From Pseudomonas poae (GTDB lineage Bacteria; Pseudomonadota; Gammaproteobacteria; Pseudomonadales; Pseudomonadaceae): a stretch of DNA of 64,000 bases. The stretch's first letter is position 1. Every line of letters starts with the position of its first letter. The position numbers and the translations under genes were made by a program. The notes under the pieces are model-generated. The model made no database searches. It was not told the DNA's origin and worked only from the letters and a program-made list of their open reading frames with translations. The DNA lies in the NCBI GenBank assembly GCA_004000515.1, contig CP034537.1:6779501-6843500 (forward strand), in the 5' to 3' direction. Below, in pieces: positions 46,283-54,504 of the stretch.

Positions 46283-47797
46283 TTAGTTTTTCACCACTTC
46301 CTCAAGGGTGAAGCGGCCCAACGGGTTCTGCAGGAAATTGCTGATGTTGCTGCGTGAGATGTTGATATACGGGCTGTAGTACAGGTCAATCCAGTTCACA
46401 TCCTGCTTCGCCAGCTTCTGCAGCTCGACATACATCTGCTCACGCTTGACCGGGTCGGCCTCGATCCGCGCTTGCGCCACCAGGTCCTTGACCTTGTCGT
46501 TCTTGTAGCGGGTCATGTAGTTCTGGTTGGTGTCGTGGCCCAGCACGAAAGTGGTCTTCTGGTCCGGGTCGAGGATGTCGTTGGTCCAGTACATCACCGA
46601 AATATCGTAGTCACCGTCCACCAGCATCTGCCAGCTTTGGGTGGGGTCGACCTTTTGCAGGTTGGCGGTCACGCCGACCTTGGCCAACTGGTCCTTGATG
46701 ATCACCGCGATCTGCTCGTCGGCTTCGTTACCGGCATTGACCACGTAGTTAAGCTTCAAATCCTTGGCACCGGCGGCAGCCAGCAGTTTCTTGGCCTCGG
46801 CTGGGTCGTACGGGCGTTGCAGGTTGTTGGCGTAGTGGTACAGCGAGCCCTTTGGAATGTAGGAATAGGCCACAGTGCCCTGACCGAACGTGGCGGTCTT
46901 CACCAGCGACTGCTTGTCGATAGCCATGTCCAGCGCCTGACGCACTTCCGGCTTGGCCAACAAGCCGTGCTCGTGGTTGATCAGCAGGTGATCTTCACGG
47001 GTGGACGGGTCGGAATGCACCACCACATTCTTGTCTTTCTTCAGCTCCTCAACCCGTGAAAACGGCACGAAGATCGCCGTGTCCAGCTCGTTGTTCTGCA
47101 CCATGCGCATGCGGGTGTTGTCGTCGGTCACCGAGACCCACTCCACGCCATCCAGGCTGACGTTCTTGGCTTGCCAGAAGTTCGGGTTCTTTTTCAGGAT
47201 CACCCGATCGCTCTTGCGCCACTCGTCCACGGTAAACGCGCCGGAGGTCACCGGGTTTTCCGAGTAGGCCTCTTCACCCATTTTGGTCATGGCTTTTTCC
47301 GACAGGATCGACACCGTCGGCGAAGCCAGTTGGGAAAGGAAAGCTACAGCCGGAGTCTTCAGCGTGACCACCAGGGTTTTCGGATCAGCCGCCTTGGCCG
47401 TGTTGATCAGGTTGAAGGGGTCAGCCCACAGCGACGCCTTGTTGTCGCGAATACGCAGCAGGCTAAACGCCGCGTCATCTGCGGTGATCGCCGAACCGTC
47501 CGAGAATTTCGCGTCACGCAGCTTGAAGGTGTAGGTCAGGCCGTCCTCTGAAATCTCCCAGCTTTCTGCCAGCCCCGGCTCCATCTTGGTGCCCAGGTTA
47601 TCCACGCGGACCAGGGTGTCGTAGACGTTGGCGAATACCCAGGTGTCGCGGTTTTGCGCGCTTTTGATCGGGTCGAACGTGGTGCTGTCTTCACGGCAAC
47701 CGATGGTCAATACGCCGGCGGCTTGCGCCAACCCGGCAGTGAGGGACCAAGCGGTCAACGTGGCGGCTGCAAGCAGCTTCAAGTGGCGCGATTGCAT
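46283..47797 (-). CDS. peptide ABC transporter substrate-binding protein
   Basis: A 504-residue periplasmic binding protein of the oligopeptide/dipeptide (SBP family 5) type. The signal peptide (MQSRHLKLLAAATLTAWSLT, AGLAQAAG) precedes LTIGCREDSTTFDPIKSAQN. The SBP-5 signature region LAESWEISEDGLTYTFKLRD and FSDGSAITADDAAFS is plain. It is the last gene of the transporter operon, starting inside the 3' end of the second ATPase gene. In the known PipR system such a transporter imports the plant-derived signal. That role is inferred for this one. Confidence 0.9.
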   Translation of the reverse strand: MQSRHLKLLAAATLTAWSLTAGLAQAAGVLTIGCREDSTTFDPIKSAQNRDTWVFANVYDTLVRVDNLGTKMEPGLAESWEISEDGLTYTFKLRDAKFSDGSAITADDAAFSLLRIRDNKASLWADPFNLINTAKAADPKTLVVTLKTPAVAFLSQLASPTVSILSEKAMTKMGEEAYSENPVTSGAFTVDEWRKSDRVILKKNPNFWQAKNVSLDGVEWVSVTDDNTRMRMVQNNELDTAIFVPFSRVEELKKDKNVVVHSDPSTREDHLLINHEHGLLAKPEVRQALDMAIDKQSLVKTATFGQGTVAYSYIPKGSLYHYANNLQRPYDPAEAKKLLAAAGAKDLKLNYVVNAGNEADEQIAVIIKDQLAKVGVTANLQKVDPTQSWQMLVDGDYDISVMYWTNDILDPDQKTTFVLGHDTNQNYMTRYKNDKVKDLVAQARIEADPVKREQMYVELQKLAKQDVNWIDLYYSPYINISRSNISNFLQNPLGRFTLEEVVKN

Positions 47798-48798
47798 GTC
47801 ATAACTCCTTGTTTATGGACGGCAGAAAGGGTCAAGGGTTGTTCAAGCACGCAACTGTACCGATGCTCGTGCAGGAAATGAGTCGGCGGCAACACCACGG
47901 AACACATGGCTTGCGCGTGCCGGCAGCGCGGGTGAAAGGCACACCCTGTAGGCAAATTCAGTGGGCTGGGTGGCTCACCCGGCAAGGGTTCCGAAGGCAA
48001 CGGTCGATGAGGGTCGATCTCCGGAACCGCCTCAATCAACGCCGCGGTGTAGGGGTGGCGCGGCGCGGTAAATACCGCTTCCACCGGCCCTTCCTCGACG
48101 ATCTTGCCCAAGTACATCACCGCCACGCGGTCACACAGGCGGCGCACGATCGCCAGGTCATGGGCGATAAACAGAATCGCCAGGTTCATGCGCTGTTGCA
48201 GCTCCAACAGCAGGTTGATGATCTGGCCCTGAATCGACACATCCAGCGCCGCCACGCACTCGTCGGCGATGATCAGGCGCAGTTCCACCGCCAGCGCACG
48301 GGCGATGCCGACGCGCTGGCACTGGCCGCCGCTGAGGGAGCCGGGTTTGCGGCTGGCAAGTTCGGGGCGCAGGCCGACCAGGTCGAGCAGTTCATTGACC
48401 CGAGCCGGAATCCGGTCCGCTGGGACCTTGCGTTGCACCCGCAACACTTCGGCAATGGTTTCGCCGATGGTATGGCGCGGGTTCAAGGCTGCGTAAGGGT
48501 CCTGGAAGATCATCGCAGTTTCATGACGCAAACGCGCAATGTCGACGGCGCTGCCGTGGGCCATATCGATGCCGTCGAACAACACCTGGCCGCCACTGAT
48601 CGGGTTGAGGTGCAAAATTGCCCGACCCAAAGTGCTCTTGCCGCTGCCGGACTCGCCTACCAATCCAAGGGTTTCACCCGCCGCCAGGTTCAGCGCCACA
48701 CCGTTCACCGCCCTCACCCACTGCTTGTTCAACCCGAACAGCCCGGTGCCGGACGCGGCAAACTTCACCTCCAGGTCCTTGATCTGCAACAGGCTCAT
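47779..48798 (-). CDS. peptide ABC transporter ATP-binding protein (OppF/DppF type)
   Basis: A 339-residue ATPase. Walker A is [20 protein letters not shown], the signature SLSGGQCQRVGIARALAV, and Walker B RLIIADECVAALDVS. The C-terminal oligopeptide/dipeptide extension has a cysteine cluster (GCAFHPRCRHAQAMC) as in OppF. Note Gln-Cys in the SGGQCQR signature where SGGQRQR is usual. Start 48798 overlaps the OppD-type stop by four bases; the longer frame to 49053 is not real. Confidence 0.9.
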   Translation of the reverse strand: MSLLQIKDLEVKFAASGTGLFGLNKQWVRAVNGVALNLAAGETLGLVGESGSGKSTLGRAILHLNPISGGQVLFDGIDMAHGSAVDIARLRHETAMIFQDPYAALNPRHTIGETIAEVLRVQRKVPADRIPARVNELLDLVGLRPELASRKPGSLSGGQCQRVGIARALAVELRLIIADECVAALDVSIQGQIINLLLELQQRMNLAILFIAHDLAIVRRLCDRVAVMYLGKIVEEGPVEAVFTAPRHPYTAALIEAVPEIDPHRPLPSEPLPGEPPSPLNLPTGCAFHPRCRHAQAMCSVVLPPTHFLHEHRYSCVLEQPLTLSAVHKQGVMTCNRAT

Positions 48799-49751
48799 GG
48801 GTGCGCTCCCAAGGGGTAGTGACAGGCGACCCGCGCCCCTTCCGGCAAGCGCTCGGTGCACAAGGCGCCGACCTGCGGGCAGCGCGGATTGAAGCGACAA
48901 CCGGCGGGCAATGAGTCCAGCAACGGCGGCTGGCCAGGGATGGTGCGCAGCAAGGCGTGACCGCTGCTGTGCGCCGGTTGGCAGTCGATCAGGCCAGCGG
49001 TGTAGGGGTGTTGCGGACGGGCCAGCAGGTCGTACTTGCTGCCGTGTTCGCACAGGCGTCCGGCATACATCACCGCGATGGAATCACAGGTTTGCGCCAC
49101 CACGCCAAGGTCGTGGGTGATGATGATGATCGATAAGCCGCGCGTGTCTCGCAGGTCCAGCAGCAGGCGCAGGATTTGCGCCTGCACGGTGACGTCGAGG
49201 GCGGTGGTTGGCTCGTCGGCAATCAATACCTTGGGGTTGCAGCCCAAGGCGACGGCGATCATTGCGCGCTGGCGCATGCCGCCGGAAAACTCGTGGGGGT
49301 AGTTGTCGACACGCGCCTGGGGATCGGGAATGCCCACTTGGCGCAACACGTCGATGGCCTGCAGGCGCGCGTCCTTTTTCGAGGCGCCTTGATGCAGGCG
49401 GATACCCTCGGCGATCTGCTCGCCGATGCGCATCAGCGGGTCCAGATGGCTGCTGGGATTCTGGAAAATCATGCCCAGTTGCCCGCCACGCACGGCGCGC
49501 ATGCCTGCATCATCCAGTTGCAACAGATCCTGGCCGGCCAATCGCACCGCGCCGCCTTGCACCCGCAGGCTGGGCGATGGCAGCAAGCGCATCAGGCCGC
49601 GACAGGCCATGGTCTTGCCCGAACCACTCTCGCCCACCAGGCCGAGGATCTCGCCTTCGGCCACGTCAAACGACACGCGGTCCACCAAGGTGACGTCGCG
49701 CCCAGGGTGAGTGGCGATTACGCTCAGGTCTTGCACCTGCAACAGGCTCAT
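48795..49751 (-). CDS. peptide ABC transporter ATP-binding protein (OppD/DppD type)
   Basis: A 318-residue ATPase. Walker A is [20 protein letters not shown], the signature [16 protein letters not shown] and Walker [16 protein letters not shown]. The C-terminal domain ends with the [12 protein letters not shown] cysteine motif. It is translationally coupled to the DppC-type permease upstream and the second ATPase downstream through 4-bp overlaps. Confidence 0.92.
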
Positions 49752-50605
49752 GAGCGATCCCCCAATACTTGCGCCACGCCGTCCGCCAGCAAGCTAAAGC
49801 CCATGGCCAGGGTCACAATGGCCAGCCCCGGAAACGTGCAGATCCACCAGGCGGTGGTGATGAAGGCCTGACCTTCGGCGACCATGGTGCCCCACTCGGC
49901 GGTGGGCGGCTGCACGCCCAGGCCCAGGTAACTCACGGCGGCGCCATTGAGCAGTACCAGCACGGCGTCGGACATGGAAAACACGATCGAGCCGAACATC
50001 GCATTCGGCAGCAAATGCCGGAACAGAATGCGCCCGTGGCCAAAGCCCAAACTTTTGGCCGCCAAGGCAAAGTCGCTTTCCTTCAGCACCAGGATCTGCG
50101 AGCGGATCAGCCGCGCATACGACACCCAACCCACCAGCGCCATGGCGATGTAAAAACTCTTCAGGCCCGGCCCGAGAATGGCCATGATCGCCAGCATCAA
50201 CACCAGGAACGGGAACGCCAGGATCACATCGATGACGCGCATGCAGAAACTGTCGAAACGCCCGCCGATGTAGCCGGAGACTGCGCCGATGAAGGTGCCG
50301 ATCATGAACGGGAAGATCACGCCGATGATCGCCAGTTGCAGGTCGATGCGTGCGCCCCAGATCACCCGCGAAAGAATGTCGCGCCCGTAATTATCCGTGC
50401 CAAATGGATGGGCCAGGCTGGGACCGAGCAAACTGATATCAGTGTTTTGCGCAATCGGGTCATAAGGTGCGATCCACGGCGCGAACAGTGCCAGGGCAAA
50501 CCACACCAGCAGAATCAACAGGCCCCACGCGGCAGTCAGACGACCGTTGCGAAAACCGAAACGCAAGCGCAGGCGCCACGGGGCAATCAACGGGCGGCTG
50601 GTCAT
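49748..50605 (-). CDS. peptide ABC transporter permease (DppC type)
   Basis: A 285-residue inner-membrane permease with six helices. The N-terminal segment WGLLILLVWFALALFAPWIA is followed by HPFGTDNYGRDILSRVIWGA, the family signature. The EAA loop (ALAAKSLGFGHGRILFRHLL) contacts the ATPases. Starts and stops overlap neighbouring genes by 4 bases. Confidence 0.92.
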   Translation of the reverse strand: MTSRPLIAPWRLRLRFGFRNGRLTAAWGLLILLVWFALALFAPWIAPYDPIAQNTDISLLGPSLAHPFGTDNYGRDILSRVIWGARIDLQLAIIGVIFPFMIGTFIGAVSGYIGGRFDSFCMRVIDVILAFPFLVLMLAIMAILGPGLKSFYIAMALVGWVSYARLIRSQILVLKESDFALAAKSLGFGHGRILFRHLLPNAMFGSIVFSMSDAVLVLLNGAAVSYLGLGVQPPTAEWGTMVAEGQAFITTAWWICTFPGLAIVTLAMGFSLLADGVAQVLGDRS

Positions 50606-51549
50606 TGCATCTTCACCCGTGGGTCGAGGGCCACGGTGACCACGTCAGCAACAAAGTTGACCACCACCGTGGCACAGGCCAGCACCATGGCCACGCCCTG
50701 CACCACCATGTAGTCGCGGGTGAAGATGCCGCGCACCAACAATTGGCCGATGCCGGGGATGGCGAACAGGCTTTCGATCACCACCGTGCCACTGATCAGC
50801 CAGCCGATATTCACCGCCAACAGGTTGACCGCCGGCACGAGGGAGTTGGGCAACACGTGGCGGCGAAACACCGCCGCTTCCGACAGCCCTCGGGCCCGGG
50901 CGGCGGTGACATGGTCGGCCTGTAACTCCATCAACATGCTGGCCCGCAGGTTGCGCACCAATACCGCCGACAGCGCCAGGGCGATGGTCAGGCACGGCAG
51001 CACCATATGGTGGGCCTTGTCCACCCAAGTGCGACCGTAACCGGACACCGGAAACAGGCCCCACTGCACGCTCAACAACAGGATCAGCATCAAGCCCAAC
51101 CAGAACGCCGGCATGCCCAGGCCCACGGTGGTGAATACGCGGATCAGGTTGTCTGCCCAACCACCTTTGTTACGCGCGGCGACGGTTGCCAGCGGCACCG
51201 CAATCAGCAGCGCCAGCACCACGCTACCAAGCACCAGCATCAGGGTCGGCTCGATGCGGGTAACGATCAGTTTCAGCGCATCGACCTTGTACAGCAGCGA
51301 TTGGCCGAGATCGCCTTTGAGCAGGTTTTTCAGGAAGTAGAAATATTGCAGCCATAACGGCTGATCGAGGCCGTACTGGGCGCGGATTTTCAACAAGGCG
51401 TCTGGCGTGCTTCGCGAGCCCAGCAGGGCCCGCGCCGGGTCGCCGGGAATCGAACGCACCAGCACAAAGGTAATCAGGCTGATGCCAAACAACACCGGCA
51501 GCAATTGCAGCGGCCGGGAGAGTACAAAGCGGTAGCGCGCCAGGTTCAT
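50602..51549 (-). CDS. peptide ABC transporter permease (DppB type)
   Basis: A 315-residue permease with six membrane segments. RPLQLLPVLFGISLITFVLV and RSIPGDPARALLGSRSTPDA form the N-terminal family block; VTAARARGLSEAAVFRRHVL and PNSLVPAVN make the EAA loop. It follows the proline-iminopeptidase-like gene by three bases, so the operon is peptidase, two permeases, two ATPases, binding protein. Confidence 0.92.
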   Translation of the reverse strand: MNLARYRFVLSRPLQLLPVLFGISLITFVLVRSIPGDPARALLGSRSTPDALLKIRAQYGLDQPLWLQYFYFLKNLLKGDLGQSLLYKVDALKLIVTRIEPTLMLVLGSVVLALLIAVPLATVAARNKGGWADNLIRVFTTVGLGMPAFWLGLMLILLLSVQWGLFPVSGYGRTWVDKAHHMVLPCLTIALALSAVLVRNLRASMLMELQADHVTAARARGLSEAAVFRRHVLPNSLVPAVNLLAVNIGWLISGTVVIESLFAIPGIGQLLVRGIFTRDYMVVQGVAMVLACATVVVNFVADVVTVALDPRVKMQ

Positions 51550-51552
51550 CCG

Positions 51553-52440
51553 TCAGCCTCGATGACGCGCAAGGAAGTCCAGCAGCACCGGGAAATACGC
51601 CTGGGGTTCTTCGTAGAACGGCATATGGCTGCTGTTGGGAAATACGTGCAATTCGGCGTGCCTGGCGGCCATCTTCATTCGCATGGCACAGGCCGGGGTG
51701 AGTTCGTCGTGCTGGCCGGTGGTGATCAGGATAGGCATCTTGAATTCGGTCATTTCAGGGAGACGGTTCCAGTCCTTGAGATTGCCGATATAGAGGAATT
51801 CGTTGGGCCCCTGCATGGTTTCGTAGGGGCCCATGTTCCAGTCACCCAGCGAGCGTTTGACCGGCTCGGGCCACTCGTCGAGGCGGCACACGTGGCGGTA
51901 GTTGAGCAAGGTGATCGCGGCCTGGTACTGCGGGTGGCTTAGGGTGCCCATGGCTTCGTGGCGCTGCATCATGGCCACGGTTTCGCTGCCGAGGGCGCCG
52001 CGCAGGCGTTCCAGTTCCTGGGACAGGTGCGGGATGTCGCCGACGGTGTTTTCGAGGATCAGGCTTTTCAGGGCTTCGGGGTAGTGGATGGCGTACTCGA
52101 TACCCAGCCAGCCGCCCCAGGAATGCCCAAGCAAATGCACGCGGCCCAGTCCCAGGGCTTGGCGCACGGTTTCGACTTCTTCGACATAACGGCGGATTTC
52201 CCACAGGGAAACATCGGTCGGTCTGGCTGATGCGCCCGTGCCAAGCTGGTCGAATGCAACCACTCGCAGGTTATGGTCTTTGAGCCAACCATGGGCGTCG
52301 CGCAAGTAGTCACACGGCAAGCCTGGCCCGCCGTTGAGACACAAAAGCACCTCATCGCCTTCGCCAAAGCTGTAGACCACGAGGTCATAGCCGTCGACTT
52401 GCACGCTGTACTGCTGGTCGGGGGCAATTTCACGCCACAT
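51553..52440 (-). CDS. proline iminopeptidase-like alpha/beta hydrolase, first gene of the transporter operon
   Basis: A 295-residue cytoplasmic hydrolase. The oxyanion block LCLNGGPGLPCDYL, the nucleophile GHSWGGWLGIEYAI, the acid in TGQHDELTP and the His in PNSSHMPFYEE complete a Ser-Asp-His triad of the prolyl aminopeptidase/amidase family. ATG 52440 follows AAGGAA. A lux-box-like dyad and a -10-like TAGTGT (52495-52500) precede it on the minus strand. In the PipR system of Pseudomonas a similar peptidase gene is activated by the LuxR solo next to it. Confidence 0.88.
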   Translation of the reverse strand: MWREIAPDQQYSVQVDGYDLVVYSFGEGDEVLLCLNGGPGLPCDYLRDAHGWLKDHNLRVVAFDQLGTGASARPTDVSLWEIRRYVEEVETVRQALGLGRVHLLGHSWGGWLGIEYAIHYPEALKSLILENTVGDIPHLSQELERLRGALGSETVAMMQRHEAMGTLSHPQYQAAITLLNYRHVCRLDEWPEPVKRSLGDWNMGPYETMQGPNEFLYIGNLKDWNRLPEMTEFKMPILITTGQHDELTPACAMRMKMAARHAELHVFPNSSHMPFYEEPQAYFPVLLDFLARHRG

Positions 52441-52522
52441 GCATACATTCCTTGTGTTGTGTCGGCCTGGCAGGTAGCGGCCGTTTAGCGGCCAACACTA
52501 CCGAGGATGCCGCGCGTCCATA

Positions 52523-52542
52523 ACCTAGCAATTCTTATAGGT
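52523..52542 (-). promoter_or_regulatory. lux-box-like dyad upstream of the peptidase-transporter operon
   Basis: Read on the minus strand, ACCTATAAGAATTGCTAGGT is a 20-bp dyad (ACCTA/TAGGT outer arms). TAGTGT, a -10-like hexamer, begins 22 bases past its end. The right half TTGCTAG matches the second box at 53400-53419, at nearly the same distance from its -10-like element. Confidence 0.65.
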
Positions 52543-52601
52543 TTGGCCTGGCTGTCCTTCGCCGGGGCGTGGCATTCTACTTGCAGCAAGTCGAGATTCA
52601 A

Positions 52602-53387
52602 ATGAATTCGGGAGCAGAACGGATGCTGGCCAAGCTAACTGCCTTCAATCACCGCTTGATGCCGGGCAGGAGCCTGGATGAGCAGATGGACAACACGTTT
52701 ATCCTCGCCCAGCAGTTGGGCTTCGATGCACTGGTGTATGACTACACCCCGGTGCCGATTGACCAGGATGGTGCACTCATCACCCCCTCGGTACTGGCGT
52801 TGCGCAATACCCCGCCGGGCTGGCACAGCTTGTGGTGCTGCAAAGGGTTCTATCAGATCGATCCGGTGCAGCATTTGGCCCTGAGTACGGTGTCGCCGTT
52901 CGTGTGGTCCTACGAAGCCAAGGCCGATACCGCGCTACAAAAGATCATCGATCCCTGCCATGCGCCCGTTTCGTCCTACCTGCACGACCAGCAACTGACC
53001 TGCGGCGTGAGCGTGCCAATCCACCTGCCCCGTGGTGGTTTTGCGTCGCTGACCGGGCTGCGTACCGGCAAAGCCCAGACCGTACTGCAGGATGCGCAGC
53101 AAACCTTGTCGGATTTCAGCCTTATTTCCCATGCCTTGCAGGAAGCGGCCTACCCGCTGTTCAGCAAGGAGCTGCGCACCTACCCGCATATCCACCTGAC
53201 CAAACGGGAGCGCGAGTGCCTCAAATGGGCCGCCGACGGCCTGACTGCTGCTGAAATCGCCAGCCAGCTGAGCCGTTCACTGGCGGTGGTTACCCTGCAC
53301 CTGGCCTCGGCGATGCACAAACTGGGGGCCAAGAACCGCGTACAGGCGGTGGTGCGCGCCACCCATTACCGCCTGCTCGACGATTGA
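52602..53387 (+). CDS. pipR: LuxR-family solo regulator (PipR/OryR type, autoinducer-binding-like domain plus HTH)
   Basis: A 261-residue regulator with an autoinducer-binding-like domain (about 1-170) and a C-terminal LuxR HTH (IHLTKRERECLKWAADGLTA and AEIASQLSRSLAVVTLHLAS). By the TraR numbering, W57, D70, P71 and W85 are retained in GWHSLWCCKGFYQIDP and FVW, but Y61 is Trp. Such replacements mark the plant-responsive solo subfamily, which does not bind usual AHLs. No luxI-type synthase is in view. A peptidase gene sits on each side and a peptide transporter beyond, as in the PipR locus that senses an ethanolamine derivative. ATG 52602 is used; ATG 52623 has a better-spaced GGGAG. Confidence 0.88.
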   Translation: MNSGAERMLAKLTAFNHRLMPGRSLDEQMDNTFILAQQLGFDALVYDYTPVPIDQDGALITPSVLALRNTPPGWHSLWCCKGFYQIDPVQHLALSTVSPFVWSYEAKADTALQKIIDPCHAPVSSYLHDQQLTCGVSVPIHLPRGGFASLTGLRTGKAQTVLQDAQQTLSDFSLISHALQEAAYPLFSKELRTYPHIHLTKRERECLKWAADGLTAAEIASQLSRSLAVVTLHLASAMHKLGAKNRVQAVVRATHYRLLDD

Positions 53388-53399
53388 CCCGCGCGCAAA

Positions 53400-53419
53400 A
53401 CCTAGCTGTTTTGCTAGTT
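53400..53419 (+). promoter_or_regulatory. lux-box-like dyad upstream of the second peptidase gene
   Basis: ACCTAGCTGTTTTGCTAGTT is a 20-bp dyad (CTAGC/GCTAG inner arms). A -10-like TATTGT follows at 53441-53446, 21 bases after the box, so the box centre would lie near -43. This is the usual position of a class II LuxR-activated promoter. Confidence 0.7.
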
Positions 53420-53480
53420 ACCTAAACTTCCCGCGACGACTATTGTGTCCCTGATCCTTTTTTTGAGAGCAGGGCACGAA

Positions 53481-54413
53481 ATGGAATTCATCGAAAAAAT
53501 CCACGAAGGGTATGCGGCGTTTGGCACCTACCAGACCTGGTATCGCGTCACCGGTGACCTGTCCAGTGGCCGTACACCGCTGGTGGTCATTCACGGCGGC
53601 CCGGGTTGCACCCACGACTATGTCGACGCGTTCAAGGATGTCGCTGCCAGCGGTCACGCCGTGATCCACTACGACCAACTGGGCAACGGGCGCTCCACCC
53701 ACCTCCCTGACAAAGACCCATCCTTCTGGACCGTCGGCCTGTTTCTCGAAGAGCTGAACAACCTGCTGGAGCATCTGGAGATCAGCGACAACTACGCGAT
53801 TCTCGGCCAATCCTGGGGCGGCATGCTCGGCAGCGAACACGCGATCCTGCAGCCCAAGGGCCTGCGCGCGTTTATCCCGGCCAACTCGCCGACGTGCATG
53901 CGCACGTGGGTCAGCGAAGCCAACCGCCTGCGCAAATTGTTGCCCGAAGGCGTGCATGAAACCCTGCTCAAGCACGAAGCCACCGGCACCTACCAAGACC
54001 CGGAATACCTCGCGGCATCACGGGTGTTCTATGACCATCACGTGTGCCGGGTCAACCCGTGGCCGGACGCAGTGGCGCGCACCTTTGCCCAAGTCGACTC
54101 CGACCCGACGGTGTACCACGCCATGAGCGGCCCCACCGAATTCCACGTAATCGGCAGCTTGAAAGACTGGAAATCCATCGGCCGCCTGTCGGCAATCAAT
54201 GTACCGACGCTGGTGATTTCCGGCCGGCACGATGAGGCCACGCCGCTGGTGGTCAAGCCGTTTTTGGATGAGATCGCGGATGTGCGCTGGGCGCTGTTTG
54301 AAGACTCCAGCCACATGCCCCATGTCGAAGAACGCCAAGCGTGCATGGGGACCGTGGTGAAGTTTTTGGATGAGGTGTGTGCAATGCCGTACAAAGAACT
54401 CAAGGCTGGCTGA
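53481..54413 (+). CDS. second proline iminopeptidase-like alpha/beta hydrolase
   Basis: A 310-residue alpha/beta hydrolase. [17 protein letters not shown] is the HGGP oxyanion block, [14 protein letters not shown] holds the nucleophile, SGRHDEATP the acid and [11 protein letters not shown] the His. It resembles the first peptidase across the regulator but is clearly a different sequence. ATG 53481 is preferred over 53445, since the protein body begins [20 protein letters not shown]. It lies downstream of a lux-box-like dyad and is probably activated by the LuxR solo. Confidence 0.87.
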
Positions 54414-54420
54414 ATTCAAA

Positions 54421-54492
54421 TGTGGGCGCTGGCTTGCCTGCGATGACGAGGGTGAATTCACCGCAGCTATCGCAGGCAAGCCAGCGCCCACA
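54421..54492. repeat. REP doublet at the convergent peptidase/NCS2 ends
   Basis: TGTGGGCGCTGGCTTGCCTG and CAGGCAAGCCAGCGCCCACA form a fully symmetric pair; the loop is short. Both copies share the same change (GGCGCT for GGAGCT), showing compensatory change in the stem. Confidence 0.9.
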
Positions 54493-54504
54493 TCAGGTAC
54501 CGCT

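Follow-up and report, generated by a model that had tools for sequence, protein, structure and literature searches.

Does the LuxR solo gene that stands between two hydrolase genes in Pseudomonas poae belong to the PipR circuit known from Pseudomonas sp. GM79, and does its product act on both flanking units? The locus lies in a stretch of 64,000 nucleotides (nt) of contig CP034537.1 (the window, whose numbering is used below). We regard it, with a probability of roughly 0.9, as an orthologous GM79-type PipR circuit in which liganded PipR acts via two dyads of 20 base pairs (bp), one before the aapA-transporter operon and one before pipA. What is directly observed is the gene set and its arrangement, the presence and conservation of the two dyads, and the constant distance to the -10 element of pipA. 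The central features of the window are the following.

51553..52440, minus strand: aapA, aminopeptidase-type alpha/beta hydrolase (TIGR01250 above cut-off; 87% identity to GM79 AapA)
52495..52500, minus strand: -10-like TAGTGT of the aapA operon, 22 nt from the dyad
52523..52542, no strand assigned: aapA-side PipR dyad, ACCTAGCAATTCTTATAGGT as plus-strand letters (direct reading; regular expression in 154/159 loci)
52623..53387, plus strand: pipR, LuxR solo, 254 amino acids (aa) from the proposed start (PF03472, PF00196; 73% identity to GM79 PipR)
53400..53419, plus strand: pipA-side PipR dyad, ACCTAGCTGTTTTGCTAGTT (direct reading; 152/159 loci)
53441..53446, plus strand: -10-like TATTGT of pipA, 21 nt from the dyad (TANNNT there in 113/113 distinct promoters)
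53481..54413, plus strand: pipA, proline-iminopeptidase-family hydrolase (TIGR01250 above cut-off; 76% identity to GM79 PipA)

PipR combines an autoinducer-binding domain (PF03472, 4.9e-25) with a LuxR helix-turn-helix domain (PF00196, 1.6e-15). Regulators of the PipR/OryR type have an adjacent proline iminopeptidase gene, and the PipR form has two, with an ABC transporter in addition; here both flanking hydrolases belong to that family (TIGR01250 above cut-off), and ABC transporter genes are present. A preliminary description of this DNA had matched the gene set to the PipR system of Pseudomonas, and the locus does hold a LuxR solo of the PipR type together with two matched operators. The genes around pipR encode the hydrolases, transporter components, a permease, and a LysR-type regulator, and none of them is a LuxI synthase gene; the search for LuxI covered this neighbourhood alone. 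In an alignment to RhlR chain 7r3g, the binding pocket of PipR keeps W57 and has Trp in place of Y61, as does GM79 PipR (rule taken from the relevant part of PMC4981722).

The two dyads share ACCTA...TTGCTAG, lie on opposite strands, and are borne out to the base, as are the gaps of 22 nt to TAGTGT (minus strand, 52500-52495) and 21 nt to TATTGT (plus strand, 53441-53446) described earlier. Each dyad is 20 bp long and reads NNCT-N12-AGNN, which is the lux-box form, with 6/10 positions complementary by direct reading. Counting the first base of the -10 hexamer as -12 would place the dyad centres near -43.5 and -44.5. This would be a class II geometry, since class II lux boxes are 20-bp dyads that overlap the -35 region and keep a constant distance to the -10 element. 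Measured from the ATGs, the distances in the window are -71.5 (pipA) and -92.5 (aapA), and the inverted repeat before pipA is at the same position, -71.5, in the window and in GM79.

The agreement between the two sites had been called hard to get by chance, a statement that fails for the pattern itself and holds for its conserved placement. In the 7.52-Mb genome, ACCTA-N6-8-TTGCTAG occurs exactly in 2 places, both at this locus, and its reversed control in 3; a looser version with up to three mismatches gives 14 places against 40 for the control. The unusual feature of the dyads is their placement, and conservation is an independent test. With the pattern count at chance level, conservation must therefore carry the argument.

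Relatives were collected in several sets. The best 80 of 102 were kept in the first selection, two further sets were made up of loci from the best 30 matches each (matches in 42/199 and 93/398 genomes), and 20 further regions, mostly of low identity, were chosen by hand, which gave 161 loci in total. Counts refer to 159 of these; L027 and L069 were left out because the regular expression for the protein end failed, though dyads are seen in both. Some loci represent one genome twice (for example, L081 and L187), hence the use of distinct counts, which are based on promoter sequence. In the first 81 loci, the half-site anchor of the aapA-side dyad was present throughout and that of the pipA-side dyad in 80, the exception being L081; the pipA dyad was found in 140 of 141 loci oriented to one strand. 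Over the full set, the aapA-side dyad was matched by regular expression in 154/159 loci and missed in L188-L190, L197, and L198, of which the last two do carry it, with T at its second position. The pipA dyad was found in 152/159 and missed in L188-L190, as well as in L081 and L185-L187, which are protegens-type loci from three genomes. L188-L190 are LuxR paralogues (44-49% identical) without either dyad. Failure of the dyads to be conserved in relatives that keep the genes had been named as grounds for giving up the proposal; this was checked with the above counts, and the proposal survived.

The spacing to the -10 element is conserved most strictly at pipA, where TANNNT is found at a distance of exactly 21 nt in each of the 113 distinct promoters with a dyad, and the spacer between the two is poorly conserved. 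This conserved, base-exact geometry among the loci examined is an addition of the present analysis. At aapA, a hexamer of this form 22 nt from the dyad is less conserved (90/114 distinct loci), in line with the weaker control of aapA in GM79. In two loci of a clade about 60% identical (L191, L193), no open reading frame of at least 120 aa was seen on the aapA strand between the first transporter gene, identified in L193 as a permease, and pipR, so the dyad there faces the transporter genes directly. Three pipR matches come from a single genome (G169, contigs C14 and C20); two of these are partial and lie on a small contig, which reflects either a duplication or an assembly artefact.

The link to GM79 can be made at the level of the sites. 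Identities to the GM79 proteins over aligned positions are 185/253 (73%) for PipR, 258/295 (87%) for AapA, and 219/290 (76%) for PipA. The GM79 contig (L068) is among the relatives, and its dyads were measured there at 71.5 and 91.5. In the part of Schaefer et al. 2016 (PMC4981722) that concerns them, an inverted repeat is placed at -71.5 before pipA and a potential PipR site at -91.5 before aapA; the values are equal, so these are the same dyads as published. The same source reports that the pipA reporter showed PipR-dependent expression, which was abolished by deletion of pipR or by a two-base change in the pipA site, and that basal activity of the aapA reporter was about five times as high, with peptone raising it only some 1.5-fold. 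The need for the transporter, PipR, and the pipA dyad, together with feedback by the peptidases, was shown in GM79 (PMC4981722, in the part cited).

By analogy, we infer that this behaviour holds in P. poae as well. A plant- or peptide-derived molecule would enter through the aap ABC transporter and be bound by PipR, and liganded PipR would bind both 20-bp dyads. From this position, which overlaps the -35 region, it would activate pipA and, more weakly, the aapA-transporter operon, and the two peptidases would remove the signal and so close a negative loop. The preliminary description predicted class II activation of both units. Equal activation of the two is only partly supported: pipA depends strictly on PipR in GM79 and has its -10 at 21 nt in 113/113, but aapA rose only about 1.5-fold in GM79 and has a less conserved -10. 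The PipR circuit was worked out in one poplar endophyte, and the conserved geometry supports transfer of the GM79 genetics to the other Pseudomonas loci examined.

Several points weigh against a plant-responsive circuit acting through both dyads. The count of the dyad pattern in its own genome is at chance level, and the pattern itself was chosen from these two sites. As GM79 aapA responds weakly to PipR, the dyad on that side may contribute less than was suggested. In protegens-type loci, the pip-type gene persists but has no dyad. Among published systems, plant extract gave no induction in Kosakonia according to the relevant part of PMC7301841, and the pip gene of P. syringae pv. actinidiae did not respond to plant extract according to the portion of PMC3909224 that deals with it.

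A further question is how pipR itself is transcribed. Between the aapA-side dyad and the pipR ATG there is a conserved block, not mentioned in the preliminary description, and two features of this leader are listed here.

52570..52584, plus strand: predicted sigma54-type -24/-12 core TGGCATTCTACTTGC before pipR (GG-N10-GC in 106/119 distinct loci)
52610..52614, plus strand: ribosome-binding-like GGGAG of pipR (direct reading)

TGGCA begins 27 nt after the aapA-side dyad in 104/119 distinct loci, and TGGCATTCTACTTGC has the form of a sigma54-type -24/-12 core directed at pipR, on the same strand as the gene. The full TGGCAY-N5-TTGC is present in 91/119 distinct loci. In its own genome, TGGCAT-N5-TTGC occurs in 22 places against 5 for the reversed pattern; 14 of the 22, pipR's own included, lie within an open frame longer than 200 codons, and two stand before glnA and fliL, which are classic sigma54 targets. 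The pipR core thus resembles sigma54 (RpoN) promoters such as that of glnA in having TGGCAT-N5-TTGC before the gene on the same strand, but differs from them in that no activator site was recognised upstream. A simple NtrC-like regular expression, with other activators not tested, found no site in the part of the window searched or in L068, L058, L191, L193, and L198.

Some loci fit a sigma54 core poorly. GG-N10-GC is broken in 10 orthologous distinct loci, namely eight in which the GC is displaced one base further on (L053 plus seven from the L076 group) and L081 and L185, which lack the -12 GC; three paralogues do not have it either. In addition, the main-clade spacer is more conserved than the -12 element. 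At about even odds, pipR, translated from 52623, would be transcribed from a sigma54-type promoter at 52570-52584, and the receptor would be made only when a sigma54 activator is on. Nitrogen status is the obvious candidate for the input to this activator. If so, plant sensing in fluorescent pseudomonads would be gated twice, by the plant molecule via PipR and by the sigma54 activator, which would tie it to the nutrient state of the cell and might account for responses that are weak or missing in certain laboratory settings. Among the open-access papers examined, we found no report linking sigma54/RpoN to a LuxR solo or a pip regulator in Pseudomonas; the pertinent part of PMC6490944 places RpoN at hrpL and not at a pip regulator.

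The strongest alternative for the same block is that TGGCATTCTAC is a sigma70 element, namely a minus-strand -10 (TAGAAT) for basal transcription of aapA through the dyad, perhaps within a bidirectional promoter shared with pipR. The sole match of a sigma70 scan, TTGAAT-16-TAGAAT on the minus strand, lies exactly here, at a rate equal to background (1 found, 0.9 expected), and the minus-strand -35 matches at 4/6 positions in 48/69 distinct leaders, compared with 2/6 on the plus strand in 68/69. Basal expression of aapA in GM79 is high (PMC4981722, in the section cited), bidirectional promoters share a -10 according to the relevant part of PMC10268837, and in the main clade the spacer TTCTA equals the -24 element in conservation and exceeds the -12 element. 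However, the minus-strand -35 is poor in more distant loci, and the TAGAAT reading, which fits the main clade, does not fit the clade of about 60% identity. There, in seven distinct loci, the spacer reads TGTCC, CGTCC, or TGTCT between TGGCAC and TTGCT; TAGAAT is gone and the sigma54 elements are kept. We consider the sigma70 element possible but doubtful.

A second alternative is that the block is coding and that PipR starts further upstream, as annotated in GM79, where the long frame begins at L068:2408 and encodes 289 aa. The annotated GM79 pipR gene overlaps the aapA-side site (PMC4981722, in the part concerned), and residue K96 in the cited portion of PMC7301841 fits the 289-aa numbering by our own count. 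No stop interrupts the upstream frame in the window or in GM79, and the core-to-ATG length is of one phase in 88/103 distinct loci. In 15/103 distinct loci, however, the stretch from the conserved core to the ATG equivalent to window 52623 contains an in-frame stop, and in 15/103 its length is in another phase; this count left out L027, L069, L119, L194, L197, and L204, in which regular expressions failed, and L188-L190. In addition, L197 has about 170 extra nt between the core and the start, and GTGGCATTCTAC is conserved at third codon positions too. The upstream start is therefore improbable, and the comparison of leaders suggests that pipR most likely starts at 52623 and not across the dyad. 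With a start at this position, behind GGGAG, the aapA-side dyad is intergenic and no longer seems to overlap pipR. The leader of L197 looks as if something had been inserted; its dyad-core offset is 40 nt, as in L193 and L198.

The genome was also searched for further targets. Across 25 genomes, AAACCTA-N10-TAGKT stands beside pipR in 17 of the 17 that have pipR, with 3 matches elsewhere; the 8 genomes without pipR hold 2 matches in all. In the genome of P. poae itself, it occurs without mismatch in 4 places, two of which are at this locus. The third, at 571177 (L165:1440-1568, G000:C1), was rejected as a chance dyad match among TTGTACA repeats before an open reading frame, and the fourth, at 1367056 (L166:1501-1522, G000:C1), is a near-palindrome, AACCTAATAAAATCAATAGGTT, which resembles the dyads but has nothing alike among the pattern matches of the 25 genomes. 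A place with two mismatches at window 11217 is apparently inside coding sequence (no gene check was made) and was taken as chance. Similar-looking extra matches of the pattern were seen in G165 and G310. No conserved third PipR target was thus found with this pattern in the own genome and the 25 others, and dedicated PipR targets look confined to this locus, with the limit that weaker sites would be missed. That the dyads are chance matches or sites of another regulator is very improbable, since, even though the exact pattern occurs genome-wide at the level of its reversed control, they are conserved at a fixed spacing in loci whose PipR is only about 60% identical, the pattern stands beside pipR in every pipR genome searched, and the GM79 genetics (PMC4981722, as cited above) agree.

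Behind aapA, the operon continues with genes for a peptide-type transporter, namely two permeases, two ATPases, and one binding protein.

50602..51549, minus strand: ABC transporter permease, aapB position (PF00528; place matches GM79 contig L068)
49748..50605, minus strand: ABC transporter permease, aapC position (PF00528)
48795..49751, minus strand: ABC transporter ATPase, oligopeptide type (PF00005, PF08352)
47779..48801, minus strand: ABC transporter ATPase, oligopeptide type (PF00005, PF08352)
46283..47797, minus strand: ABC transporter substrate-binding protein (family 5), last gene of the aap operon (PF00496, E 2.4e-96)

A long near-perfect hairpin is located 3' of pipA at 54420-54493 (-63 kcal/mol, z -10.9). 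It is perhaps a repetitive extragenic palindromic (REP)-like element or a terminator; an Rfam search gave only matches far below gathering scores, on this hairpin.

Compared with known systems, the locus is closest to that of GM79. The genes, their order, and their strands agree, as do the pocket signature and the dyad positions, at -71.5 and about -92 relative to the ATGs. The P. poae locus differs in that the aapA-side dyad is one base further from the ATG (92.5 vs. 91.5) and in that the centre of the pipA dyad reads GCTGTTTTGC instead of the TCTGTTTCTC of GM79. The Pseudomonas protegens homologue (L081), which we take to be PsoR, is a 61% identical regulator whose locus keeps the upstream dyad and a pip-type hydrolase gene downstream. 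In that locus (L081, 997-4262), however, an M24 peptidase gene occupies the place of aapA, the pip-type gene has no dyad, and there is no GG-N10-GC core, and this arrangement suggests a rewired form of the PipR circuit.

Xanthomonas solos of the OryR/XccR type likewise combine a LuxR solo with a neighbouring proline iminopeptidase gene and an inverted repeat (parts of PMC4981722 and PMC8546723). Their loci have an APC-type transporter instead of the ABC peptide transporter found here, and a conserved pocket Trp that is unchanged in the window and GM79 is changed in them (both in the cited part of PMC4981722). Solos of the PipR/OryR type are characterised by a response to plant macerate or HEHEAA rather than to AHLs. 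The inducer in P. poae may be the ethanolamine derivative that acts in GM79; PsrR of Kosakonia did not respond to it in the portion of PMC7301841 concerned. For psaR2 of P. syringae pv. actinidiae, the relevant part of PMC3909224 describes high expression and no autoregulation under the conditions used. Both PipR sites are already published for GM79, and the locus of P. poae is an orthologue of a known circuit. To this, our comparison of sequences would add a corrected start of pipR and a candidate sigma54 gate, of which the gate would be the new part.

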